From Shinella zoogloeoides (GTDB taxonomy: Bacteria > Pseudomonadota > Alphaproteobacteria > Rhizobiales > Rhizobiaceae), in the NCBI RefSeq assembly GCF_003574625.1, contig NZ_QNUJ01000012.1, positions 124,001 to 188,000 on the forward strand: a stretch of 64,000 nucleotides of DNA, written 5' to 3'. How positions within the stretch are numbered: the stretch's first letter is position 1; the number at the start of each line of letters is the position of its first letter. Position numbers and translations under genes: made by a program. Below, piece by piece: positions 6,931-20,517 of the stretch. The notes beneath the pieces are model-generated. The model saw only the letters and a program-made list of their open reading frames with translations. It ran no database searches and was not told where the DNA came from.

Positions 6931-9900
6931 TCATTCACCTATAACCACGAGAACATGGCTGTCCCCATCCAGCGGCAAGCGTATCGGGCCGCCGGCGTAG
7001 GGCAACGGCGCGCTGTCCAACGTCGCGGAGGGCGTGCTGTCTGGCCGATCCGAAACCCTTCCGATTTGGATTTCGTAGCGAGTATCACTCATTGTGATTA
7101 TCACCTCGACCTGCGGCCATGATGCCGGCAGGCAGGGTTCCATCACGAGCACTCCACCTTCCCGGCGCAGGCCGAGGATGCCCTCGATGCCGGCACGATA
7201 CATCCAGGCGGCGGAGCCGGTGTACCATGTCCAGCCGCCGCGCCCGATATGCGGCGCGACCGAATAGACGTCGGCGGCCACCACATAGGGCTCGACCTTG
7301 TAGCGCAATGCTGCCTCCGACGTGCCTGCATGGTTGATCGGGTTGAGGAGCGCGAAGAGATCGTGTGCCTTGTCGCCCTCCCCCAGCCGGGCGAAAGCGA
7401 GGATCGCCCACATGGCAGCGTGGCTGTACTGGCCGCCGTTTTCGCGCAGACCCGGCGGATAGCCCTTGATGTAGCCCGGATCACGCGGGGTCGCATCGAA
7501 CGGCGGCGTGAAGAGGAGCGCGAGGCCGTCCTCCTTGCGGATCAGGTGAGTTTCCAGCGACGCCATGGCGGCGGCGGCGCGGGCGGGATCGGCAGCGCCG
7601 GACAGGACCGCCCAGGACTGGGCGATGCTATCGATCCGGCATTCGTCATTGTCCTTCGATCCCAGCCATGAGCCGTCATCGAAAGTGGCGCGCCGGTACC
7701 AGGCCCCGTCCCAGGTTTCCTGTTCAATGGAAGCCTTGAGCGTCTGCGCATGCGCCTTCCAGCGCGCAGCGCGCTCGGGGTCGCGGCTCTCCGCAAGCGG
7801 TGCAAACAGGTCGATCGCGCGGATCAGGAGCCAACCAAGCCAGACGCTTTCGCCCCCGCCCCCCTCGCCCACCCGGTTCATACCGTCGTTCCAGTCGCCG
7901 GTGCCCATCAGGGGCAGGCCATGCCGGCCGGTGAGCGCGACAGCCTGGTCAAGGCCGCGGGCGCAATGCTCGAAGAGCGATGCGAACTGGCCGGAGGGCG
8001 TCGGCTGGAAGAAGGCATCGTGTTCTCCCTCGGCGAGGACCGGCCCATCCAGGAACGGGATGGCTTCATCAAGGATCGGCGCGTCGCCGGCCGTTCCGAT
8101 ATAGGTCGCGGTGGCGAAGGCGAGCCACACGCGGTCGTCGGAAATCCGCGTGCGAACACCTGCGCCGGAATGGGGTAACCACCAATGCTGCATGTCGCCT
8201 TCGGCAAACTGCCGCCCGGCGGCGCGCAGGATATGCGCCCGCGTCTCCTCCGGCCGGGCGAAAGCGAGCGCCATACCGTCCTGCAACTGATCGCGGAAGC
8301 CATAGGCGCCGCTGGCCTGGTAGAAGGCCGAGCGCGCCCAGATGCGGCAGGCAAGCGTCTGGTAGAGAAGCCAGCCGTTCAGCATGATATCCATCGCCCG
8401 GTCCGGCGTCCTGACCTGCACGGTCTGCAAAAGCGTCTGCCAATACGTCGTCACGTCGGCAAGAGCCGCATCGAGATCGGCGGCGCGGTAGCGGGTGATC
8501 AGCGCGCCCGCCGCCTCGGCCGAAGCAGCCTCGCCGAGGAAGGAGACGAGTTCGATGCTTTCGCCCGGGTCGAGCTCGACCGTGCATTGCAGCGCCGCGC
8601 AGGGATCAAGACCGGCACCGACCTTGGCGCCGAGCGGCATTCTCCTTGCGAGCGCCGCCGGTCGTGCGGAACTGCCGTTGCGTCCGAGGAATTCCGTGCG
8701 GTCGGCGGTCCATGCGGTCTGCCGGCCGCCGAGATCGGCAAAGGCGACGCGGCCGGGGAAACTCATGGCCGATCGATTGCGGGCGAAAACCGCCCTCGTC
8801 TCGGCGTCAAGGGATGTGGCGATGAAAGGTGCGCCGGCACCCCGCAGGGTGCCGAGCACCCATTCGGCATAGCTCGTGACCGACAGGCGGCGCGGCCGCG
8901 ACGAATGGTTGGTCAGCGTCAGCCGCGAAATGCGGATCGGATCGGCGAGCGGCACATAGGACAGCAGCTCGCTTTCGATCCCGTGCGCCCGATGCGCGAA
9001 ACGGCTGTAGCCGAAGCCATGGCGTGCAACATACCGCCCGTTATCCCGGATCGGCTGGGCCGTCGGGCTCCAAAGATCCAGCGTCTCCTCGTCGCGGATG
9101 TAAAGCGCCTCGCCGGAGGGGTCGTAGACCGGATCGTTGGACCATTGGGTGATCTGGTTCTCGCGGCTGTTTTCCGCCCAGCTATAGGCGCTGCCGTCGC
9201 TCGACACTTGGAAGCCGAAGGCGGGATTGGCGATGACGTTGATCCAGGGCATCGGGGTCGTCGCGCCGTCTTCCAGCACGGTGACATATTCCGTGCCGTC
9301 CCTGTCGAAGCCTCCAAATCCATTGAAGAATTCCAGATCCACCGGTGGCGCGACCATCTCGGCCGAGGATTTCGAGGGAAAGGATGGCGGCAGAGGAGCC
9401 GAGCGCTCGACGCCAGCAGAAAGGCGTGCGAGCTGATCGGCGATGAGGCCATGATGGGCGGACAGCACGACGCGCGCGGTGGCGTTCAGGAGATTCTTCG
9501 TCTCCTGGTTCAGGAAATCGGTGCGCAGCACATGCACCGCGCCCTGCGCCGGCATGTCGCCGAAACGCGGGCGGGACTGGCTGGAGCGCACGGCGGCTTC
9601 AACGGCGTTCTGCAAGTCCTGCACATAGGAGGCGGCACGTTCGTTGACGATCACCAGATCGACGGCGAGCCGCTTGATGCGCCAGTATTCGTGTGCGCGC
9701 AGCATCTGGCGCAGCTGGGGAAGGTCTTCGGTATCCTCGATGCGCAGCAGCACGATCGGCAGGTCGCCGGAAATGCCGTAGGGCCACAGGCCCGACTGCG
9801 GCCCGGCACCGGCGAGGATGGCATCCGAGGCGGGACGGAAGCGCGCGTCGGCATAGAGGATGGGCGCGGCAAGACGCTGGAAGTCCGACGCCTCCTCCAG

Positions 9901-12900
9901 ATCCATATCGAGATGGTGAAGCTGCACCTGCGCCTGGGTCCAGGCGAGCGTCTTCGCCCGCTCGAAGGCGCTTCTGTCGTGGTGCTTGTCGATGCGTTCA
10001 AGAAGCTCTTCCCGCGACCGTGCGACAACCGTCCAGAAGGCAATGCGCGCCACTTTGCCGGGAAGCACCCGCACGCTGCGGCGCAGCGCGAAGATCGGAT
10101 CGAGCACGGTTCCCGCGGTGTTGGACAGCGCCTGCCCGTCATGAATGGCGGCGGCCGTGGCGATGGTGCGGCCGCGCCCAAGGAAACGGGCGCGATCGGA
10201 TTCGTATTGCGGATCGGCAATCGTATCGCCCTCGACCACGGTGAAGTTGGCCGCCCAGATCTCCGCCTCCGAGGGCGTGCGGCGGCGGCGCGTGGCGATG
10301 AGCGCGCCGTATTCGGCCAAATGCTCGGTCTCGACGAACATCTTGGCGAAGGCGGGATGCGCGTTGTCGGTGGCCGGGGTGGCGAGCACCAGTTCGGCAT
10401 AGGAGGTCAGTTCGATCTCGCGTGCCCGCCGCCCGCTGTTGGTGAGGCAGATGCGGCGCACCTCGCCGTCGTCCTCGCCGGAGACGATGACATCCATCTC
10501 CGTCGTCAGCGTCTCGTCATGGCGGATATATTGTGCGTGGTCCTCGCCGAAGACCACCGAGGCCTCGGCCCTGTCGCCGACTACCGGCAGCGTGGGGGAG
10601 AAGATCGTGCCGGTCTGCATGTCCCTGAGAAAGATGAAAGCGCCACAATCGTCGCGGGTCGCATCCTCGCGCCAGCGCGTGACGGCGATGTCGCGCCAGC
10701 GGCTGTAGCCGCCGCCCGTGGCCGTCAGCATCACCGCATAACGCCCGTTGGACAAGAGATGCGTGACCGGCGCGCCGGCAACGGGCAGCGAGAGCCGGCG
10801 TACCGACGGCGCCGGGTTCAGCGAAATTCCTGCGGAGGCCTTGACCTCCTCGGCGCGCGGCCGGGCGATCGCCACATCGCGCGGCATGCGCTCCGACAGC
10901 AGGAGTTCGCTGGCCATGATCATCGGCTCCCGGTGGAACCGCGCCCGCATACGCCCGTCCTGCAGGAGGACGGCGATGGCGACGATGGTCATGCCTTGGT
11001 GGTGAGCCATGTAGCTGCGGATGATCTCGACGCGGGCGTCTTCGGGCAGGCGGGCGCGGGTGAAGTCCAGCGCCTCGTAGAAGCCGTGCAAGCCGCGCGC
11101 GCCAAGGGATTCGAGATGCCGGTAGTTTTCGAGCGCAGCATGGGGATCGACCATGGCGGCAAGGCCGGTGGCATAGGGGGCGATGACAATGTTGCCTGAC
11201 AGCCCGCGCTTGAGGCCGAGCCCCGGCACGCCGAAGTTGGAATATTGATAGGTGAACTCGATGTCACGCGCATTGAAGGCGGATTCCGATATGCCCCAAG
11301 GCACGTGCCGCGACCGCCCATAGGCCTCCTGCCGTGCGACGATCAGCCTGTTCGTGTCGTCGAGCAGGCTTCCCGCCGGTGCGCGCATCACGAGCGACGG
11401 CATGAGATATTCGAACATCGAGCCCGACCAGGAGATCAGCGCCGAGCCGCTGCCGAGCGGCGTCGCCGCCCGGCCGAGGCGGAACCAATGGCGCGTGCTG
11501 ATATCGCCCTTTGCGATGGCGAAGAAGCTCGCAAGCCGGGCTTCCGAAGCAAGAAGGTCGTAGCAGTTCGGGTCGAGCCCGTTGTCGGCGAGCGAATAGC
11601 CGATGGACAGGAGCTTCCTGTCGGGATCGAACAGAAAGGCGAAATCCATGTCGAGCGCCATGGTGCGGGCTGTGTCCGCAAGCGCCTGAAGCCGGGCTTT
11701 CACGGAGGCGGCATCATCGCGGAAGACCTGTCGGTCGCGCGCGGCCTGTGTGACGGATCGGGCGAGCGCGCCGATCCAGAACGTAAGATCGGCGGCCGTG
11801 CCGTCATCGGCAGGTGTTGCCTGCTCGGCCAGTTTCAGGGCCTTGTCCAGAAGCCGCGTCAATGCGGGTGTTGCGGCCTCGATGGATTGCGGGCCACGCA
11901 CGAGGGTTTCAGCTTCGTCAATAATGTCCGTCAGGCTGGCACCGGGATTGCCGGCCGTCTCGCCGAGAGCCATGCGGGCGAGCGCCAGCGTATCACCGAA
12001 ACCCTCCCCGTCTTCCGCCGGCGGCGTCCCGGCCCACTCCTCGCAGGCATTCGCCAATGCGATCAGGTGGCCGGCGAGATTGCCGCTATCGACGGAGGAG
12101 ACATAGGCGGGAGCGAGGGTTCTGAGATCGCGTGTATCGTACCAGTTGAAGAAATGGCCGTTGAACCGGTCGAGCCGCTTGAGCGTCGAAAAGGTCGCTT
12201 CCAGCCGTTCAAGCGCTTCAAGCGTTCCCACCCAGCCAAAGTCGCGCGCAGCGACCGTCGAGAGAAGATAGAGACCGATATTGGTCGGCGAAGTCCGATG
12301 GGCGATGGCGGGCAGCGGGGTTTCCTGGAAATTGTCCGGCGGCAGCATGTTTTCCAGCGGCGTGACGAAGGTTTCGAAGAACCGCCATGTGCGCCGCGCG
12401 ACGAGCCGGAGTTCCGCCGCATCGGCATTCGAAAGCGCCCTGCCCGGCCGTGCCGTCGGCGATCGGCTGACCCAGAGCGCGAGGGCGGGCGCGGCCGACC
12501 AGAGGAGTGCCAGCAACAGCGCCAGAGGCCAGGCGACCGGCGAAAACGCGACAGCAGCGGCCAGGAGGACCAGCCCGACGACGGTGCCGCCCGCCATGTC
12601 ACGGTAGAAGCCGGCGAGCGTCAGCCGCATCCGGTTTCCAGCTGTCGCGGCGGTCGTCCACTCCAAGAGTTTCCTGCGCGTCACCAGCAGCCGACCGGCG
12701 GTTCTGAGCACGGCATCGCAATTGCGCCAAGCCTGATCGGGCAGGAAGGACAGGCCGAGCGCCGCCTGCATCGCGGCGAGCTTGATATCGCCGGCAAGCC
12801 TGACGGCATGGCTGCTCAGTTGCAGGCCGCTGCGGCGCGGCAGGATGGCGAAGGCCACCGGCAGGAAGGCGGGAAAGACGATGCATGAAGCGACCAGCAG

Positions 12901-15555
12901 CGCCGCGGTCACGCCCGCCTGCAACGGCATCGCGCAACAAGCCACGAGCGCTGCGAATGTCGACGGCGCGATGAGGGTGCGGCGCAGATTGTCCAGCATC
13001 TTCCAGCGGCCGAGTGCGGGAAGTGCCCGCCGCCCGAATATCCACGGTAGCAGCTGCCAGTCACCGCGTGTCCAGCGGTGCTGGCGCCGGGCGGCAACGT
13101 CGTAGCGCGACGGAAAATCGTCGACCACCTCGACATCGGAGGCGAGCCCCGCCCGCGCGAACGTGCCCTCGAAGAGATCGTGGCTGAGAAGGGTATTCTC
13201 CGGAATGCGGCCGGCCAGCGCCGCCTCGAAGGCATCGACATCATAGATGCCCTTGCCGGTATAGGAACCCTCGCCGAACAGGTCCTGATAGACGTCGGAA
13301 ACGGCCGCCGCATAGGGATCCATGCCACCGGGCGCGGAAAAGACCCGCTGGTAGAGCGAGCCTTCGCGGCCGATGGGAAGCGACGGGGTGACGCGCGGCT
13401 GTATGATCGCATAGCCGTCGACGACCCGCTGCTGCACGGTATCGAAGCGCGGCCGGTTGAGGGGATGCGCCATCTTGCCGATCAGCCGCAGGACCGTGTC
13501 GCGCGGCAATTTCGTATCCGCATCGAGGGTGATGACATAGCGCACGTCCGGCGGGACGGATGGCGACTTTCCGCCAAGCGCCATGAAGCTGGTGTCGGTG
13601 GCGCCGCGCAGCAGGCGGTTGAGCTCGTGCAGCTTGCCGCGCTTTCGCTCCCAGCCCATCCAAACATTCTCGCTGGCATTGAACCGGCGCTTTCGATGCA
13701 GCAGCAGGAAGCGGTCGCCGGCCGGACCCGGCCCGTGCCGGCGGTTGAGGTCGGCCATGGTCTCAACAGCGAGCGCGAGAAGCGCGCCATCGCCCTCGAC
13801 GGTCTCCTGCGAGGCGTCCTTTCCGTCGGTCAGCAAAGCGAAGCTCAGGTCGCCGCCCGCGCCCGAGAGATGATGGACCTCCAGCCGCTCGATCTGCTCC
13901 AGCAGGTCGGCACGATTGCTCAGGAGCGTCGGCACGACGACCAGCGTGCGTGACGACGATGGGACGCCCTGCGCGAGTTCCAGTCCCGGCAGACCGGTCG
14001 CGCTGTGGCTCCAGCTCACGAAGCGGTTGACGAGCGCCGTCGCGATATCGCTTGCCGGCAACAGCGCCAGCACCGCGAAGACGATCAAGCCGGGCGCCGA
14101 GAGACCGGCGATGGACAGCAGCCATAGCGCAAGCGCCAGAAGCATCGCCGTCACGAGCCCGATCGCCCCGACATAACCGGTAATGCCCGTGCGCGCCGCC
14201 AGCCGCCCAGCGATCAGATGCCGGGGCGGGCGGAACCCGACCGCGCGCTCTAGAGCCGGCCGGCCTTCCGCGATCAGGTGGTAGCCCGGATCGCCGACAC
14301 GTTCGGCCTGCGAGGCGGTGTCCCCCGCGAACGGTGCGGCCTGCGCCGCTTTCACCGCCTGCCCGGCAATGTCGAGTTCCGACAGGTCCGAGCCGCGGGC
14401 GAGGTCTTCGAGGGCGCTGCGATAGAGGTTGCGCGTGGCGAAATCCATGCGGGCGAAGCTGCCGTCGGCCGAAAGGCACGCATCGACGAGGCTGACCTTT
14501 TCAAAAAGATCGGCCCAGTCAACATCGCTGATCAGCCGCATGCTGGTGATGATGTTCCTGATCGTGACATTCGACGCGCCCTGGCGCTGCTGGGCATGCC
14601 GCACCACGGCATCCACCGAGCTATCCTGCCTTGCCAGCCGCGCCTCCAGCCAGCCATGCGCCGGCGTCGTGCTGGGGTCCTGGTCGCGCAGCCGTTTGGC
14701 AAGCTGGGCCGCGAAGAGTTCGGGCAGGGGGTCGGCGGAGACCCTTTCAAGCGCGCTGCCGCGACCCTCGTTCGCCAAGAGCCTGTCGGCCAGCGCATCC
14801 GCCTCGGCACGCATGCGGCGCCCGGCGGTAATCTGGTCGGCAAGCCTGCGCAGGTTCTCGACGAGCACGATGCGCAGGGTGATCGCCACAGCCCACAATT
14901 CGCCGATCGTCAGGGGTTGGACCTTTTGATAGGCGGCTATGAAGCGGACGAGCGTCTCTGGATCGAAATGGCTGTCGGTGTGCGCGACGAAGGCCCAGGC
15001 AATGCCGAAGACGCGTGGATATCCGGCGAACGGCCCCTCGGCGAGTTTTGGCAGTTGCCTGTAATAGTTGGGCGGCAGGTCGTCATGAATCTCGCGTATC
15101 TGCTCCTCGACCAGATGGTAGTTGTCCAGCAGCCATTCGGCCGCCGGCACAACGCCGCGTTCGTTCTCCACCTCCAGGGCGCTGGCACGATAGGCGGCAA
15201 GCAGGACCGCTGCGTTGGTCTTCAGGCGCTTGTGCAGCGACTGGACGGACGGCGGCCGCTTCGTTACCGGCTGGGCCAGCGCTAGGGTCGCTGCGTGCTG
15301 CTCGAGCCTTTCAATGCCGAACAGTTCCTCCCGTACCGGCATGGGATCGTTCCACGGCCCGTCCGGCGTGCGGCGGAAACCGAAGCCGGACGACGGACGG
15401 TCGCCGTCGCCTTTCCCGTCCGCAGCCGCTGGCGGCTCCGGCGGCGGTTTGGAACCCTCCTCGGTGTGGAGGATCTGTTCGGCCCCGGTTCTTTCGACAA
15501 CAGCGGTCTCCGAGTTGCCAATGTCTTCCACGCCACGCTCTTGGCCTCTGGCCAT
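6931..15555 (-). CDS. ndvB: cyclic beta-1,2-glucan synthase (ChvB/NdvB type)
   Basis: A 2874-residue membrane enzyme that makes periplasmic cyclic beta-1,2-glucan from UDP-glucose, needed for osmoadaptation and host interaction in Rhizobiaceae; ChvB and NdvB are about 2820-2830 residues. The ATG at 15555 is preferred because AAAGGA lies six bases upstream; an in-frame ATG at 15609 lacks this. In order: an N-terminal region; two membrane spans near residues 465-505; a glycosyltransferase core with TLDADTKLPRDT (~677) and the QHRW signature (~824); more spans near 862-905 and 985-1030; a middle cyclisation region; and a C-terminal GH94 phosphorylase-like domain with GTGDWNDGMN (~2551), whose aspartate controls chain length. 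It stands alone, with no ndvA exporter visible. Confidence 0.96.
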   Translation of the reverse strand: MARGQERGVEDIGNSETAVVERTGAEQILHTEEGSKPPPEPPAAADGKGDGDRPSSGFGFRRTPDGPWNDPMPVREELFGIERLEQHAATLALAQPVTKRPPSVQSLHKRLKTNAAVLLAAYRASALEVENERGVVPAAEWLLDNYHLVEEQIREIHDDLPPNYYRQLPKLAEGPFAGYPRVFGIAWAFVAHTDSHFDPETLVRFIAAYQKVQPLTIGELWAVAITLRIVLVENLRRLADQITAGRRMRAEADALADRLLANEGRGSALERVSADPLPELFAAQLAKRLRDQDPSTTPAHGWLEARLARQDSSVDAVVRHAQQRQGASNVTIRNIITSMRLISDVDWADLFEKVSLVDACLSADGSFARMDFATRNLYRSALEDLARGSDLSELDIAGQAVKAAQAAPFAGDTASQAERVGDPGYHLIAEGRPALERAVGFRPPRHLIAGRLAARTGITGYVGAIGLVTAMLLALALWLLSIAGLSAPGLIVFAVLALLPASDIATALVNRFVSWSHSATGLPGLELAQGVPSSSRTLVVVPTLLSNRADLLEQIERLEVHHLSGAGGDLSFALLTDGKDASQETVEGDGALLALAVETMADLNRRHGPGPAGDRFLLLHRKRRFNASENVWMGWERKRGKLHELNRLLRGATDTSFMALGGKSPSVPPDVRYVITLDADTKLPRDTVLRLIGKMAHPLNRPRFDTVQQRVVDGYAIIQPRVTPSLPIGREGSLYQRVFSAPGGMDPYAAAVSDVYQDLFGEGSYTGKGIYDVDAFEAALAGRIPENTLLSHDLFEGTFARAGLASDVEVVDDFPSRYDVAARRQHRWTRGDWQLLPWIFGRRALPALGRWKMLDNLRRTLIAPSTFAALVACCAMPLQAGVTAALLVASCIVFPAFLPVAFAILPRRSGLQLSSHAVRLAGDIKLAAMQAALGLSFLPDQAWRNCDAVLRTAGRLLVTRRKLLEWTTAATAGNRMRLTLAGFYRDMAGGTVVGLVLLAAAVAFSPVAWPLALLLALLWSAAPALALWVSRSPTARPGRALSNADAAELRLVARRTWRFFETFVTPLENMLPPDNFQETPLPAIAHRTSPTNIGLYLLSTVAARDFGWVGTLEALERLEATFSTLKRLDRFNGHFFNWYDTRDLRTLAPAYVSSVDSGNLAGHLIALANACEEWAGTPPAEDGEGFGDTLALARMALGETAGNPGASLTDIIDEAETLVRGPQSIEAATPALTRLLDKALKLAEQATPADDGTAADLTFWIGALARSVTQAARDRQVFRDDAASVKARLQALADTARTMALDMDFAFLFDPDRKLLSIGYSLADNGLDPNCYDLLASEARLASFFAIAKGDISTRHWFRLGRAATPLGSGSALISWSGSMFEYLMPSLVMRAPAGSLLDDTNRLIVARQEAYGRSRHVPWGISESAFNARDIEFTYQYSNFGVPGLGLKRGLSGNIVIAPYATGLAAMVDPHAALENYRHLESLGARGLHGFYEALDFTRARLPEDARVEIIRSYMAHHQGMTIVAIAVLLQDGRMRARFHREPMIMASELLLSERMPRDVAIARPRAEEVKASAGISLNPAPSVRRLSLPVAGAPVTHLLSNGRYAVMLTATGGGYSRWRDIAVTRWREDATRDDCGAFIFLRDMQTGTIFSPTLPVVGDRAEASVVFGEDHAQYIRHDETLTTEMDVIVSGEDDGEVRRICLTNSGRRAREIELTSYAELVLATPATDNAHPAFAKMFVETEHLAEYGALIATRRRRTPSEAEIWAANFTVVEGDTIADPQYESDRARFLGRGRTIATAAAIHDGQALSNTAGTVLDPIFALRRSVRVLPGKVARIAFWTVVARSREELLERIDKHHDRSAFERAKTLAWTQAQVQLHHLDMDLEEASDFQRLAAPILYADARFRPASDAILAGAGPQSGLWPYGISGDLPIVLLRIEDTEDLPQLRQMLRAHEYWRIKRLAVDLVIVNERAASYVQDLQNAVEAAVRSSQSRPRFGDMPAQGAVHVLRTDFLNQETKNLLNATARVVLSAHHGLIADQLARLSAGVERSAPLPPSFPSKSSAEMVAPPVDLEFFNGFGGFDRDGTEYVTVLEDGATTPMPWINVIANPAFGFQVSSDGSAYSWAENSRENQITQWSNDPVYDPSGEALYIRDEETLDLWSPTAQPIRDNGRYVARHGFGYSRFAHRAHGIESELLSYVPLADPIRISRLTLTNHSSRPRRLSVTSYAEWVLGTLRGAGAPFIATSLDAETRAVFARNRSAMSFPGRVAFADLGGRQTAWTADRTEFLGRNGSSARPAALARRMPLGAKVGAGLDPCAALQCTVELDPGESIELVSFLGEAASAEAAGALITRYRAADLDAALADVTTYWQTLLQTVQVRTPDRAMDIMLNGWLLYQTLACRIWARSAFYQASGAYGFRDQLQDGMALAFARPEETRAHILRAAGRQFAEGDMQHWWLPHSGAGVRTRISDDRVWLAFATATYIGTAGDAPILDEAIPFLDGPVLAEGEHDAFFQPTPSGQFASLFEHCARGLDQAVALTGRHGLPLMGTGDWNDGMNRVGEGGGGESVWLGWLLIRAIDLFAPLAESRDPERAARWKAHAQTLKASIEQETWDGAWYRRATFDDGSWLGSKDNDECRIDSIAQSWAVLSGAADPARAAAAMASLETHLIRKEDGLALLFTPPFDATPRDPGYIKGYPPGLRENGGQYSHAAMWAILAFARLGEGDKAHDLFALLNPINHAGTSEAALRYKVEPYVVAADVYSVAPHIGRGGWTWYTGSAAWMYRAGIEGILGLRREGGVLVMEPCLPASWPQVEVIITMSDTRYEIQIGRVSDRPDSTPSATLDSAPLPYAGGPIRLPLDGDSHVLVVIGE

Positions 15556-15662
15556 AATCATTCCTTTGCCCGGATGCGGCCAGGCAGCCGGCCGGGCGAA
15601 ACCCGGCAATCGTTCTGGGGATGTGAAGGGTCGCCGAAGCTCCGCTCCAGTGTTAGGCGCTC

Positions 15663-17324: not shown

Positions 17325-17459
17325 TTATTGCACCGATGCCGGTTGACGCGATTGAGAGGGGTGAAGCCGATCATATCGGCTTTGGTCCGGGCGGTAGCCC
17401 CAAACAAAACCGATCGCCAAAACCAAGACGACGAGCATCGCTATCATGCGACCGGGCAT
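17325..17459 (-). CDS. 44-residue single-span microprotein
   Basis: Reading minus from an ATG at 17459 gives MPGRMIAMLVVLVLAIGFVW followed by a polar tail of about 24 residues ending at 17325. The hydrophobic stretch is long enough for one membrane span. The start lies inside the 3' end of the preceding gene (16-base overlap), and the carrier-protein gene begins 23 bases after its stop, so it fits a tightly packed operon. The ribosome binding site is weak and would rely on coupling. No homologue is recognised. Confidence 0.5.
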   Translation of the reverse strand: MPGRMIAMLVVLVLAIGFVWGYRPDQSRYDRLHPSQSRQPASVQ

Positions 17460-17734
17460 CGTGGCCACCCAGCGGTGGAACCGCCTTCGTTTTCCCAAAT
17501 CTCGACGCTGGCGCGCTGTTCTTGTGCGCGCGCTTTTCGGGATAGAGGATAGTTTCCGACATCAATCGTCGCCGACTTGATCAATCGGATAAGATTTGCC
17601 GCATCCTCATTCATGGTTTCCTGCCCGGGCACAAGGCTGTGGGTCTCATAGTCGGCGTTCTTGAGAATCTGCCGGAGGACGGTTCGGCGGTGCGTTCCTG
17701 GAATATCGGGGCCCTTGAAGATGAGGATTACCAT
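17444..17734 (-). CDS. 96-residue protein, unknown function
   Basis: The ATG at 17734 is chosen because GGAGGG lies six bases upstream; longer in-frame versions overlap the microprotein gene in another frame. The product begins MVILIFKGPDIPGTHRRTVL, an apparently folded alpha/beta start, then ILKNADYETHSLVPGQETMN, and ends in a polar tail (SRKARAQEQRASVEIWE). No domain is recognised. Its start overlaps the stop of the upstream microprotein by 7 bases and its stop overlaps the next microprotein, so it is the second gene of a four- or five-gene operon. Confidence 0.65.
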   Translation of the reverse strand: MVILIFKGPDIPGTHRRTVLRQILKNADYETHSLVPGQETMNEDAANLIRLIKSATIDVGNYPLSRKARAQEQRASVEIWENEGGSTAGWPRCPVA

Positions 17735-17850
17735 AGCCAACCCTCCATGAGGAGGATGAGGCTCATCGTCAGGCTGGCTGCAAAAAACACATAGCCGCTC
17801 GCGGCGTCCGATACGTATTGCTGCTGTTTGCGGAAGAAAGCGGAAGACAT
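17728..17850 (-). CDS. 40-residue membrane microprotein A (paralogue of the one at 20073)
   Basis: Minus-strand ATG at 17850 with a very strong AAGGAGGAC before it. The product begins MSSAFFRKQQQY, has a hydrophobic span (YVFFAASLTMSLILLM) and ends EGWLW. It shares start (MSS.F), size, span position and the EGWL tail with the 38-residue product at 20073, and the two genes also share a conserved 5' leader. Conservation of RBS, frame and tail argues that it is translated. It is the first gene of an operon leading to the acyl carrier protein. Function unknown; a single-span regulator or partner of a membrane complex is only a guess. Confidence 0.7.
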   Translation of the reverse strand: MSSAFFRKQQQYVSDAASGYVFFAASLTMSLILLMEGWLW

Positions 17851-17869
17851 CGAGTCCTCCTTCATTTTC

Positions 17870-17926
17870 AGGGCCAGGGTAACCACCCCTCAAACAGCAG
17901 CGCCCTTGTCAATGGCTGCTGGAATA
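17870..17926 (-). promoter_or_regulatory. conserved 5' leader element, copy A
   Basis: Read on the minus strand, this 57-nt stretch contains TATTCCAGCAGCCATT, GGGCGCTGCTGTTTGAGGG and GTTACCCTGGCCCT in the same order and spacing as copy B at 20001-20056. CAGCAGC and GCTGCTG form a 7-bp stem; AGGG and CCCT form a second short stem. It ends 19 bases before the start codon of microprotein A. Whether it acts as DNA (promoter or operator) or RNA (leader structure) is not settled. Confidence 0.65.
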
Positions 17927-18088
17927 CAAACCTTGCGCCCGATACCTCGCATTGGCAAGTCCTCAATTGCGGTCGTTTCGTGCCGGCAGCGCGCCAAGGT
18001 AGGCGGTCTACGGATGAGAAGGCGAAGTACTGTTCACCATCGATGACTTTCGGCAAGGGCGCCAATCACGGTGACCTTGGTCAAAGAC

Positions 18089-18113
18089 GGAACGTTGCGC
18101 GGTTCCAGGGGTT
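18089..18113 (+). promoter_or_regulatory. EcfG-type promoter
   Basis: GGAAC at 18089-18093, a 16-base spacer and GGTT at 18110-18113 match the general-stress sigma pattern with one mismatch in the -10. It ends 24 bases before the GTG of the receiver-domain gene. Confidence 0.55.
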
Positions 18114-18137
18114 GGTGAGCATTGGCAGGAGAATATC

Positions 18138-18491
18138 GTGCGCAAAGTTCTGGTTGTCGAAGACGAAGTGCTGATCCGCTTGACATTGGTTGACGCACTG
18201 CATGAGGCGGGCTTCGATGTTCTAGATACCGGCTCGGCAGAGCATGCTATCGAGATCATAAACGAGCAGACGATCCATCTGCTTTTCACAGACATCCAGT
18301 TGCCAGGCAAGCTAACGGGCCTTGATCTCGCCCATAGAGTTTTCGAGCGTTTTCCCGATGCCGGGATTATCGTGGCGTCGGGCCGGATACACCCGATGAG
18401 CACGGATTTACCGCCTGCGGCAAAGTTCTTTTCAAAACCATTCGGCTTCGACGAGATCATCGCGTGCTTCAAAGCAATGAACCGTCCCTAG
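18138..18491 (+). CDS. single-domain response regulator (receiver only)
   Basis: The 117-residue product is a CheY-like receiver with no output domain. The acidic pocket is VVEDE near the start, the phospho-acceptor aspartate is in LLFTDIQLPG (about residue 54), and the conserved lysine is in KFFSKPFGF. GTG start with AGGAGA six bases upstream. It lies directly before an HWE-family sensor kinase, so the two probably form a phosphorelay in which the receiver acts as partner or phosphate sink. An EcfG-type promoter sits just upstream, which links it to the general stress response. Confidence 0.92.
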   Translation: MRKVLVVEDEVLIRLTLVDALHEAGFDVLDTGSAEHAIEIINEQTIHLLFTDIQLPGKLTGLDLAHRVFERFPDAGIIVASGRIHPMSTDLPPAAKFFSKPFGFDEIIACFKAMNRP

Positions 18492-18580
18492 ATTTCGGCC
18501 GCATTCCAAATGCACATATATGACTGCGCAAGCGATATGATCCGTGGCATAACGTGCTGGGCGGAGTTCGAGATATCTTC

Positions 18581-19624
18581 ATGAAGATCGCAGTCGATAC
18601 CGGAACGATTTCCTCCCGGGAGCGCTTCCTTGAAGCGATCGTGCAGAGTGCGATCGACTACGCCATCATATCCATGGATCTCGACGGCCTCGTGACAAGC
18701 TGGAACGAAGGCGCGGTAAAGATACTTGGCTGGAAAGCCGAGGACATGATCGGAAAACCGGGCACGGTCTTCTTCACGCAGGAAGACAGGGAAAATGGCG
18801 TTCCGCAGAAGGAGATGACCGCTGCCCTCAACCGGGGCCGGGGCAATGACGAGCGATGGCATCTGCGCGCCGATGGCACGATGTTCTGGGCCTCGGGCGA
18901 GATGATGGCGTTGCGCGCGCCCGACGACAAGATCATCGGCTTCATCAAGATCCTTCGCGACAGGACTGGGGAACGCGAACGGGAGGAACGTGAGCGCCTC
19001 CTCATGCACGAGCTCGCCCACCGCATGAAGAATACGCTGTCTGTCGTTCAGGCGATCGTGACGCAATCCTTGAGGAATGCGGTTTCACTGGACGATGCGA
19101 GCGACAAGCTTCAGCTGCGTATTGCGGCCTATGCCAAGGCCCATGAAATCCTGCTGCAGAAAGATTGGGTAAGTGCGACGCTCGCGGATGTCATGGCCGC
19201 CGCCCAGATGAATATCGGGTTGGACGGGAGCTCCCGTATCAGGGCAGATGGACCTGATATCCGGCTAGGACCCCAAGCGGCCCTATCGTTCGCAATGGTT
19301 TTCCACGAACTTCTCACCAACGCTTCGAAATACGGAGCCCTGTCAAACGAAGAGGGGCATGTCGAGATCTCTTGGGACCTAGAGCACCGCGATGGAATGG
19401 AGACACTCATCGTGTGCTGGCGGGAGTTAAATGGCCCGCGCATTGTCAATTTCGAACCGGACCGCAAGGGTTTTGGTTCGCGCCTCATCGTTTCTAGCCT
19501 GCAAGCCTTTGGGGAGGCATCCGTTTCCTACCGGCAAGAAGGGTTCGTCCTCCTTGCCGTGTTACCGCTCGCGAAACTTCAGCTCCAAAACGACTTGTCG
19601 GCAATTGAAAATGCGCCGTACTGA
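18581..19624 (+). CDS. PAS-domain sensor histidine kinase, HWE family
   Basis: About 347 residues from the ATG at 18581 (a GTG at 18554 is also in frame; neither has a strong RBS). A PAS domain (IVQSAIDYAIISMDLDGLVT, SWNEGAVKILGWKAEDMIG) is followed by the phospho-acceptor box HELAHRMKNTLSVVQAI, an N box HELLTNASKYGALS and the family's WxE motif in CWREL. A C-terminal glycine box is GFGSRLI. No membrane span is seen, so it is a soluble sensor. Its neighbour is a single-domain receiver. In alphaproteobacteria HWE kinases often feed the PhyR/EcfG general stress cascade; that role here is inferred from the surrounding stress genes. Confidence 0.92.
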   Translation: MKIAVDTGTISSRERFLEAIVQSAIDYAIISMDLDGLVTSWNEGAVKILGWKAEDMIGKPGTVFFTQEDRENGVPQKEMTAALNRGRGNDERWHLRADGTMFWASGEMMALRAPDDKIIGFIKILRDRTGEREREERERLLMHELAHRMKNTLSVVQAIVTQSLRNAVSLDDASDKLQLRIAAYAKAHEILLQKDWVSATLADVMAAAQMNIGLDGSSRIRADGPDIRLGPQAALSFAMVFHELLTNASKYGALSNEEGHVEISWDLEHRDGMETLIVCWRELNGPRIVNFEPDRKGFGSRLIVSSLQAFGEASVSYRQEGFVLLAVLPLAKLQLQNDLSAIENAPY

Positions 19625-20000
19625 GACGATCACGTCGCTCTTCTAAATATTCAGAACCTGTTGGCCCTCAGGAACGATTTGAATCTCCCATCCTCCTGGC
19701 ACTTGCAGAAGCAACCAACAAAAAAGGCCGGGGCGAAACCGCACCGACCTTCCTCATCATCGCTTGTCTACCAGTGCCAGTACATCCGTGGTCAAAAGCA
19801 TGAAGCGATGACAGAAATTGCGAGCAACAGAGATTCTCCAGCGCTCATAAGCAATTCTGACAATCAATATATAGATACTAATTATGTCGAAAACAAGTGC
19901 AATCGGCATATCTTATTAATATTACAAAAGGAAAATGAGCTGAATCTCTAAAATACAAAAACCATTCGTTGCTAAAGAAGGGAAACGGGTTCACTGTAAT
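19625..20000. other. intergenic region with orphan minus-strand terminator
   Basis: About 375 bases, AT-rich from 19840 to 19990. A plus-strand frame at 19809 (MTEIASNRDSPAL) is open for about 47 codons but has no ribosome binding site and atypical composition. The only structured feature is the hairpin at 19724-19751. No gene is supported. Confidence 0.45.
19724..19751 (-). terminator. intrinsic terminator on the minus strand
   Basis: On the minus strand a 12-bp stem with two mismatches closes on a four-base loop and is followed at once by a run of six T (GGCCTTTTTTG). No minus-strand gene lies upstream of it within 300 bases, so it may end an unannotated small RNA. Confidence 0.55.
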
Positions 20001-20056
20001 TATTCCAGCAGCCATTTTACGGGCGCTGCTGTTTGAGGGTTTGTTACCCTGGCCCT
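20001..20056 (+). promoter_or_regulatory. conserved 5' leader element, copy B
   Basis: TATTCCAGCAGCCATT (20001-20016), GGGCGCTGCTGTTTGAGGG (20021-20039) and GTTACCCTGGCCCT (20043-20056) are identical to copy A at 17870-17926, with small differences only between the blocks. CAGCAGC (20006-20012) pairs with GCTGCTG (20025-20031); AGGGT pairs with ACCCT. It ends 16 bases before the start codon of microprotein B. Confidence 0.65.
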
Positions 20057-20072
20057 AAGCGAGGAGGACATC

Positions 20073-20189
20073 ATGTCTTCCCTATTTCATCTACCGAAGA
20101 AACACGATTTCGCGACGTTAGCCGGTTACGCCTTACCCGCGGCTAGCTTTGCATTAATCGTCTACATCCTGATCGAGGGATGGCTTTGA
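20073..20189 (+). CDS. 38-residue membrane microprotein B (paralogue of the one at 17728)
   Basis: ATG at 20073 follows GAGGAGGACATC, a strong ribosome binding site. The product begins MSSLFHLPKKHDF, has one hydrophobic span (LPAASFALIVYILI) and ends EGWL, like microprotein A. The same 56-nt leader precedes both genes. It is followed 40 bases later by a conserved small protein on the same strand. The shared leader, RBS and tail are the evidence for a real gene; function is unknown. Confidence 0.7.
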   Translation: MSSLFHLPKKHDFATLAGYALPAASFALIVYILIEGWL

Positions 20190-20229: not shown

Positions 20230-20517
20230 ATGACCGAAAGAACCACAGAAACCGAAATCACATTCACGCATCCATTTCATCTGGAGTCCCTTTCGGAGCC
20301 TCTGGAAGCGGGCACGTATCGCCTTGTCGTTGACGAGGAGTTGATAGAAGGCCTGAGCTTCACGGCGTATCGGAGGGTGGCGACCCATCTTGAAATTCCC
20401 GCGATCTCGGTCGCTATGGCCAGGCGCCAATTCCTTCAGGTGTCGCCGGGCGAGATCGAGAAGGCATTGGCACGCGATGGAGCTGGCATGGACGTGGGTC
20501 GACCTAACATTTCCTGA
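20230..20517 (+). CDS. 95-residue conserved protein, unknown function
   Basis: The product (MTERTTETEITFTHPFHLES, then AGTYRLVVDEELIEGLSF and YRRVATHLEIPAI) looks like a small beta-rich domain followed by a short helix. Similar proteins occur in rhizobial genomes without a known role. The ATG at 20230 is preferred; GTG codons at 20218 and 20221 are in frame, and GGAAAGG lies 11 bases before the ATG. It sits just after microprotein B and ends before a bidirectional terminator. Confidence 0.65.
   Translation: MTERTTETEITFTHPFHLESLSEPLEAGTYRLVVDEELIEGLSFTAYRRVATHLEIPAISVAMARRQFLQVSPGEIEKALARDGAGMDVGRPNIS

Follow-up and report, generated by a model that had tools for sequence, protein, structure and literature searches.

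Compact H-type pseudoknots occur in the 5′ leaders of several riboswitch classes, namely preQ1, SAM-II and SAM/SAH, and in preQ1-II an extra hairpin lies inside the pseudoknot loop. Known riboswitches of this kind place the compact pseudoknot before a masked Shine-Dalgarno (SD) sequence. Here we describe a leader that recalls this arrangement. It is present twice in a 64,000-nucleotide (nt) stretch of Shinella zoogloeoides DNA (contig NZ_QNUJ01000012.1, positions 124,001 to 188,000; the window), each time in front of a small gene encoding a membrane microprotein. As in those riboswitches, a small 5′ pseudoknot is predicted near a masked ribosome-binding site. Unlike them, the leader has no Rfam match, its loops are variable, and it precedes genes for orphan small proteins rather than a metabolic gene; moreover, its SD would be masked by a downstream hairpin of its own that reaches codons 2–3, not by the pseudoknot. 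We propose, with a probability of roughly 0.6, that the leader is a default-off translational gate, in which an H-type pseudoknot and a hairpin are predicted to hide the ribosome-binding site and the start codon until a shared factor opens it.

Other described systems share single features with the leader. ROSE-type thermometers of rhizobia also place a 5′ leader hairpin over the SD, but the hairpin in question here (P3) is uninterrupted, extends past the AUG and is predicted to remain closed at 60 °C. Type I toxin mRNAs such as zor/orz and tisB/istR combine a structured leader, a masked SD and a small hydrophobic peptide with, as in some of our loci, a divergent small RNA (sRNA); they differ in that small hydrophobic peptides are a minority among the leader products (clear ones of 30-50 aa account for 36 of 158) and in that convincing complementarity to the neighbouring sRNA ar35 was lacking in six comparisons. 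The sRNA ar35/SmelB053 (RF02346) is, like the leader, a Rhizobiaceae-centred, multi-copy structured RNA, and it is a recurrent neighbour of the leader. It is nevertheless transcribed separately and ends its own structure with a terminator-like third stem-loop (PMC3927594), and its model matches beside the leader. Finally, the Rhizobiales-1, Rhizobiales-2 and flg-Rhizobiales motifs are candidate structured RNAs from the same order (PMC2864571). The latter two are numbered in Rfam there, and no Rfam family matched the leader at the gathering threshold, nor at E values up to 5 in 10 loci; Rhizobiales-1 is entered as '? n N' without an Rfam number in the table of that paper and so falls outside this null result. 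No description of the leader was found in the accessible parts of the open-licence literature, supplements aside (PMC10117765, PMC2873474, PMC3616915, PMC3927594, PMC7143759 and PMC2864571 included).

A leader family in Rhizobiaceae

An initial annotation, made from the letters of the window alone, had reported three identical blocks in the same order upstream of two open reading frames (ORFs) of microprotein size. Re-examination bears this out: both copies contain TATTCCAGCAGCCATT (16 nt), GGGCGCTGCTGTTTGAGGG (19 nt) and GTTACCCTGGCCCT (14 nt). The copies hold a 36-nt inverted repeat whose arms are 94% complementary and 2115 nt apart. Their identity extends past the SD and start codon into codons 2–3 (GGAGGACnnnATGTCTTCC), which had been overlooked. 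A genome-wide search with copy 2 recovered copy 1 at E = 3.3e-14 (self-match 1.2e-33), far above chance, and no third match at E 0.001 in the window's own whole genome.

Judged by sequence, the two leaders are members of a multi-copy, Rhizobiaceae-wide family of structured 5′ leaders. With a 76-nt query, the leader was detected in 28/297 genomes of a Rhizobiaceae sample. The initial annotation had suggested a search of other genomes with a covariance model (CM), and many Rhizobiaceae proved to carry the leader. A model built from 31 leader copies (CM R1) matched in 97 of 394 Rhizobiaceae genomes and 34 of 109 genera, with up to 9 copies per genome; the other 297 sampled genomes were without one. 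Sampling the whole class (289 genomes) gave, the window's own genome aside, one weak match only (32 bits, E 2e-4). A pattern search of named genomes, with ATGTCTTCC as part of the pattern, returned at least 117 stretches, and 78 of the 80 loci among the matches listed also matched the CM. The remaining two (Pseudomonas and a metagenome-assembled genome of Saprospiraceae) had no CM match and were treated as chance pattern matches. Named carriers include Rhizobium johnstonii 3841, R. leguminosarum, R. aethiopicum, Sinorhizobium fredii, S. americanum, Ensifer aridi, Agrobacterium arsenijevicii, Neorhizobium, Ciceribacter, Pseudorhizobium, Shinella, Mesorhizobium and Nitratireductor. In S. meliloti 1021, pSymA was the replicon searched and carries two leaders, at 1086056-1086150 and 12535-12627, both on the minus strand.

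Shinella plasmids carry near copies of leader copy 1. Two near-identical leaders lie in tandem at one locus (L064, 2698-2791 and 2858-2951). They are spaced by 160 nt, an ambiguous base lies in between, and the tandem may be an artefact of assembly. One of the pSymA copies (12535-12627; L206, 1501-1593) retains the promoter-like GCGCAAGGT, and ORFs that start just upstream of it seem to encode a transposase of the insertion-sequence type.

Counted from the first helix, P1, the strongest signals upstream of the leader are a TTGC (-37 to -34) and a GCGCAWGGT (-17 to -9). They were read from 153 of 166 copies, those lacking 60 upstream bases or a start encoding M or V being left out. The motif takes the form TTGC-N16/17-GCGCAWGGT and ends a few bases before P1; its spacing resembles that of a sigma-70-type promoter and would put the transcription start at or within about 3 bases of P1. 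PMC3616915 describes the sigma-70 -10 regions of S. meliloti as poorly conserved and gives a motif in which a TTG and, downstream of it, an A stand out, a description with which the leader's upstream motif agrees. The promoter pattern was present in 21/21 genomes, and most matches were, from their sequence, seemingly unrelated to leaders; among eight pattern loci checked, four had a leader (all of the TTGCYAA type) and the other four had none. PMC3616915 also reports the 5′ region of SMa0022 as rpoE2-responsive; its position with respect to the leader copy on pSymA could not be fixed. The S. meliloti sRNAs SmelA060/A072, which heat and salt induce, were rejected as candidate leader transcripts, as that pair differs by one base and the pSymA leaders by far more.

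A predicted pseudoknot and a predicted hairpin over the start codon

The 5′ half of the consensus reads YUU-CRGCAGC (P1), a loop of about 8 nt, GGGC, GCUGCYG (P1′), about 4 nt, AGGG (P2), a variable loop and CCCU (P2′). The 3′ half continues with one variable position, GCCC, CRA, a spacer ending in AAA, GGAGGAC (P3), usually 3 nt, and AU-GUCUUCC (P3′). Loop 1, the P1–P2 joiner and the P2 loop vary, and besides the helices and the SD region only the CRA after the pseudoknot is strongly kept. In an alignment of 136 distinct copies, 97.6% of 2437 cells were paired, compared with 36.0-55.1% when the partners were slid. Double changes were found in 13 of 18 pairs (5.2 in shuffled data) and in 122 cells (17.5 shuffled); by helix, they affected 5/7 pairs of P1, 4/4 of P2 and 4/7 of P3. 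Covariation thus supports helices P1 and P2, and P3 more weakly. When mutual information was ranked over all column pairs of 129 sequences from the same model-fitted alignment (140 matches minus the 7 lowest-scoring and 4 duplicates), pairs of P1 or P2 took 7 of the top 10 places. A MAFFT alignment of the first 31 copies, unfitted to structure, gave 96.8% paired (34-60% slid) and 14 double-change cells against 5.2, a value reached by 0/500 shuffles. The stems CAGCAGC/GCTGCTG and AGGG/CCCT, which the initial annotation had drawn from the two window copies, are hence kept across the family with the compensatory changes it had proposed to look for. G-U wobbles are common (one P1 pair has 21, two P2 pairs have 20 and 21, and one P3 pair has 126), which argues for an RNA rather than a DNA palindrome.

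The strands GGGC and GCCC, a pairing also put forward at the outset, are complementary in 99.8% of cells, nearly invariant and free of double changes. GGGC immediately adjoins P1′, as expected for an H-type pseudoknot with P2 within its long loop, and a GGGC/GCCC helix of this type is likely. A competing stem, UUG-GGGC/GCCC-CAA, which is drawn by many single-sequence folds and would replace P2 and the pseudoknot, was rejected: it is poorly conserved, with 79.9% of cells paired and double changes below those of shuffles. Since the consensus has no U-run after P2, control through termination is less likely than translational control.

The third helix, overlooked in the initial annotation, pairs the SD (GGAGGAC) with GUCUUCC, that is, the G of the AUG plus codons 2–3, in an uninterrupted stem without internal loop or bulge. 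The start region (-18 to +12) of 154 leader copies had a median minimum free energy of -10.3, with 97% at or below -9; for 94 control ORFs (mechanically called from named loci, longer than 250 amino acids (aa) and preceded by an SD-like motif) the median was -3.0, with 2% at or below -9. In a thermodynamic model without pseudoknots, the unpaired probability of the SD in three copies was below 0.02 from 15 to 60 °C. An ATG or GTG stands at the expected place, downstream and co-oriented, in 158 of 166 matches, a set from which exact duplicates were removed, in which a few truncated repeats are left, and for which the start context was part of the CM and of one pattern search. The eight matches without it score 24-48 bits, and one of them is cut by the end of its locus. 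Some matches below about 50 bits, both MTS rows included, may be false leaders.

The N-termini of the 158 ORFs are MSS in 148 cases, MFS in 4, VSS in 2, MTS in 2, MSY in 1 and MSF in 1. Products without evident similarity thus nearly all begin MSS because the P3 arm covers the G of the AUG and codons 2–3; a constraint at the RNA level would thus set the first residues of proteins that are otherwise unrelated. All four MFS rows, two of which are one locus entered twice, carry UUCUCC, and pairing with the SD arm persists in each, in one case via a changed arm, GGAGAAC.

Several points weigh against reading these features as a translational gate. Transcript start, folding and repression are predictions. 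The 136-copy alignment was fitted to the model, and in the unfitted alignment of 31 copies only 4 pairs showed double changes against 2.4 shuffled, a value reached by 26/500 shuffles. As the pseudoknot strands hardly vary, they offer covariation nothing to act on. Double changes in P3 amount to 4 cells, in 4 pairs, so that its support is mainly near-universal complementarity, which could partly reflect another constraint. The MSS count is inflated, because ATGTCTTCC was in the search pattern and the same positions are in the model. Nor did the leader copies show a conserved alternative pairing by which the SD would be released.

A proposed translational gate and its alternatives

In the proposed mechanism, transcription would start at about P1, and the RNA is predicted to fold into the H-type pseudoknot, followed by the P3 hairpin over SD and AUG. 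The folded state would block translation. One trans-acting regulator (protein, RNA or small molecule) would be common to all copies, which would thus form one post-transcriptional regulon of small orphan proteins; at several loci, a membrane microprotein would be followed by a second small protein, probably translationally coupled. More tentatively, the leader may represent a new class of RNA switch: up to nine unrelated orphan small genes per genome in one regulon, a pseudoknot sensor plus a lock that extends into the coding sequence and sets the first three amino acids, and one common signal that opens it. If the translational gate is true, rhizobia, whose symbiosis and stress biology are well studied, gain a post-transcriptional regulon that we have not found described, with one RNA module before many short genes; in the model strain S. 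meliloti 1021, pSymA carries two such genes.

The initial annotation had suggested that the leader is the selected unit, and compensatory changes together with recurrence in many Rhizobiaceae agree with this. It had also named a regulatory RNA, an RNA-binding-protein target and a shared operator as options; the compensatory changes are those expected of a structured RNA, and the evidence disfavours a DNA operator, since G-U wobbles maintain many of the pairs and one G-U in P3 is nearly fixed.

The leader could instead be a true riboswitch, whose pseudoknot domain would recognise a small-molecule ligand and relay its binding to the SD hairpin. The promoter-like motif and the leader travel together, and the likeness to known pseudoknot riboswitches speaks for it; the variable loops, with CRA as the one well-kept unpaired element, speak against it, as do products that, where tested, remain below the Pfam and NCBIfam cut-offs. 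Nor was a shared pathway found among the neighbours: 106 of the 145 neighbour ORFs listed, mechanically called, were scanned, and no family had more than 3 members. With variable loops and no neighbour pathway, a metabolite riboswitch is less likely than a shared protein or RNA that recognises the fold, and we consider the former unlikely.

It is improbable that the 5′ structure mainly protects the mRNA from decay, with its 5′ end in P1, while P3 merely tunes initiation without any switching. The start expected from the upstream motif, at the first base pairs of P1, would suit such a role, but the complementarity between codons 2–3 and the SD, as well as the unusual stability of the start region, would be left unexplained.

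Another explanation draws on the neighbouring ar35, of which the leader mRNA might be the target in a type I toxin-antitoxin-like or zor/orz-like pair with a small hydrophobic peptide. The linkage of ar35 and leader is real. The sRNA adjoins the leader in the window and in 8 further loci scanned (5/14 and 3/18 of chosen leader loci) and recurs across genera; two of these loci, L071 and L115, are Shinella-like and related to the window locus. Seven of the eight are divergent with 101-132 nt between, and in L069 the two are co-directional and 565 nt apart. Conversely, a leader lies within 1.5 kb of 8/30 ar35 loci (two of the 8 at 28-30 bits only), the 30 being the subset given out of 139 genomes with a match. 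No ar35 CM match covers the leader in the window or the scanned loci; all sit beside it. According to PMC3927594, the SmelB053 family has a GGAUGUA loop, a terminator-like third stem-loop and similarity to the 3′ ends of cold-shock mRNAs, and from the loop and terminator we infer that SmelB053 is ar35.

The conserved GGAUGUA loop of ar35 complements a UACAUCC within the 38-aa gene of the window, and loop-complementary motifs occur about 2-3 times as often as they do in mononucleotide shuffles (ACATCC 24/128 vs 11.2, ACATCCG 11 vs 3.3, TACATCC 7 vs 2.6). These shuffles ignore relatedness, however, and 5 of the 7 TACATCC genes belong to one orthologous group. In sRNA-mRNA comparisons, a 10-nt match at L013 was reached by 2.5% of shuffles, but in the other 5 of 6 the longest match was no better than in shuffles. 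The distributions differ as well, ar35 matching in 139/199 Rhizobiaceae genomes (90 above the Rfam cut-off) and the leader in 97/394, and most leader genes encode no small hydrophobic peptide. We therefore regard an ar35 target as decidedly improbable.

An RNA thermometer, in which heat melts P3, would suit an SD masked by a hairpin with a nearly fixed G-U pair, but is very improbable and, in its simple form, rejected on predicted melting: P3 has no internal loop or bulge and is too stable, the SD exposure in three copies staying below 2% even at 60 °C. It is just as hard to credit a DNA element only, be it an operator or a binding site for a sigma factor, or a drifting repeat that duplication has spread, for although the leader is multi-copy, lies in inverted-repeat arms and is linked to a promoter-like motif, its helices are kept via G-U and double changes, which is unexpected for a DNA palindrome, and diverged copies in 34 genera still match the model.

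Downstream genes and feature coordinates

Both window products start with MSS, have one hydrophobic span and contain EGWL, as first noted, and their translations confirm it. The earlier link of the leader to membrane microproteins specifically did not hold: a clear hydrophobic span is found in 36 of 40 ORFs of 30-50 aa, which is 36 of the 158 downstream ORFs overall. The median length of these 158 is 84 aa, with 123 at or below 100 aa. A V(L/F)xx(A/S)G(Y/F) motif, typical of a family of about 100 aa, is present in 52, and W(E/D)(N/D/E)(E/D)GG in 15, the WENEGG motif being common to the 96-aa product of the window and other leader-linked proteins. None of the tested downstream proteins was above a Pfam, NCBIfam or PADLOC cut-off, with one Pfam match below its cut-off. 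AlphaFold gave a small helical model for the ~100-aa family (mean predicted local distance difference test score 66.8), with no PDB match at E 0.001 or better, so that no function is assigned to the family.

Each micro-ORF of the window directly precedes a second small ORF, another feature overlooked before. Among relatives (18 loci), the second ORF is either a WENEGG product, several overlapping the first by ATGGTAA, or of the ETEITF...AYRRVATHLEIP type; three loci of the 18 compared (L044, L132, L084) have neither. The layout of the 17444-17734 ORF recurs in L071, L202 (A. tumefaciens F2), L062, L065 and L060, and an ETEITF-type ORF follows the microprotein in L071, L089, L155, L005, L030 and L068.

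Ratios of nonsynonymous to synonymous substitution (dN/dS) were computed for the micro-ORFs. The 38-aa group to which the window copy belongs gave 0.29-0.99 (6 pairs); of the groups elsewhere, one gave 0.08-0.24 (6 pairs) and another 0.09-2.3 (15 pairs, small numbers), and a single pair gave 0.23. Owing to the low values in groups elsewhere, the micro-ORFs look like real genes and are likely coding, although for the window copies this is weakly tested. The claim that the coding part is less conserved than the leader thus stands for the window pair, but micro-ORF groups elsewhere have low dN/dS. The leader also offers a handle for finding and correctly annotating small proteins of unstudied function: the database entry P0023 (S. 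meliloti, 134 aa) appears to read through a leader, and the start codons of P0023 and P0002 were seemingly called inside leaders and are likely misannotated.

Table 1. Leader elements and adjoining features of the window (positions on the 64,000-nt stretch).
Feature	Position	Strand	Basis
Leader copy 1, full model match from the -10 edge of the promoter to codon 4	17839..17934	-	CM R1, 83.8 bits
Promoter-like TTGCCA...GCGCAAGGT, copy 1	17930..17958	-	upstream logo, 153 copies
P1 5′ arm CAGCAGC, copy 1	17915..17921	-	sequence and covariation
GGGC, predicted pseudoknot 5′ strand, copy 1	17902..17905	-	complementarity in 99.8% of cells, nearly invariant
P1 3′ arm GCTGCTG, copy 1	17895..17901	-	sequence and covariation
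P2 5′ arm AGGG, copy 1	17887..17890	-	sequence and covariation
P2 3′ arm CCCT, copy 1	17876..17879	-	sequence and covariation
GCCC, predicted pseudoknot 3′ strand, copy 1	17871..17874	-	sequence and complementarity
P3 5′ arm GGAGGAC (SD), copy 1	17854..17860	-	sequence, covariation, folding energy
P3 3′ arm GUCUUCC (last base of AUG and codons 2–3), copy 1	17842..17848	-	sequence, covariation, folding energy
Membrane microprotein gene, 40 aa (MSSAFF...EGWLW)	17728..17850	-	ORF translation; orthologue in L071
Second ORF, 96 aa, ...EIWENEGG... near C-terminus, ATG overlaps microprotein stop (ATGGTAA)	17444..17734	-	locus comparison
sRNA ar35 (RF02346), divergent from leader copy 2, 131 nt between	19717..19861	-	cmscan, 133.8 bits
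Promoter-like TTGCTA-N17-CACTGT, copy 2; differs from common -10 motif	19969..19997	+	upstream logo
Leader copy 2, full model match	19993..20084	+	CM R1, 92.6 bits
P1 5′ arm CAGCAGC, copy 2	20006..20012	+	sequence and covariation
GGGC, predicted pseudoknot 5′ strand, copy 2	20021..20024	+	sequence and complementarity
P1 3′ arm GCTGCTG, copy 2	20025..20031	+	sequence and covariation
P2 5′ arm AGGG, copy 2	20036..20039	+	sequence and covariation
P2 3′ arm CCCT, copy 2	20047..20050	+	sequence and covariation
GCCC, predicted pseudoknot 3′ strand, copy 2	20052..20055	+	sequence and complementarity
P3 5′ arm GGAGGAC (SD), copy 2	20063..20069	+	sequence, covariation, folding energy
P3 3′ arm GUCUUCC, copy 2	20075..20081	+	sequence, covariation, folding energy
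Membrane microprotein gene, 38 aa (MSSLFH...IEGWL)	20073..20189	+	ORF translation, locus comparison
Second ORF, 95 aa from given ATG (ETEITF...EGLSFTAYRRVATHLEIP type)	20230..20517	+	ORF list, locus comparison

The window also contains a very large ORF of 2892 aa (6931-15609, minus strand). Its counterpart in A. tumefaciens F2 (L202), matched by size and position and unaligned, bears the annotation 'putative cyclic beta 1-2 glucan synthetase' and likewise lies near a leader.

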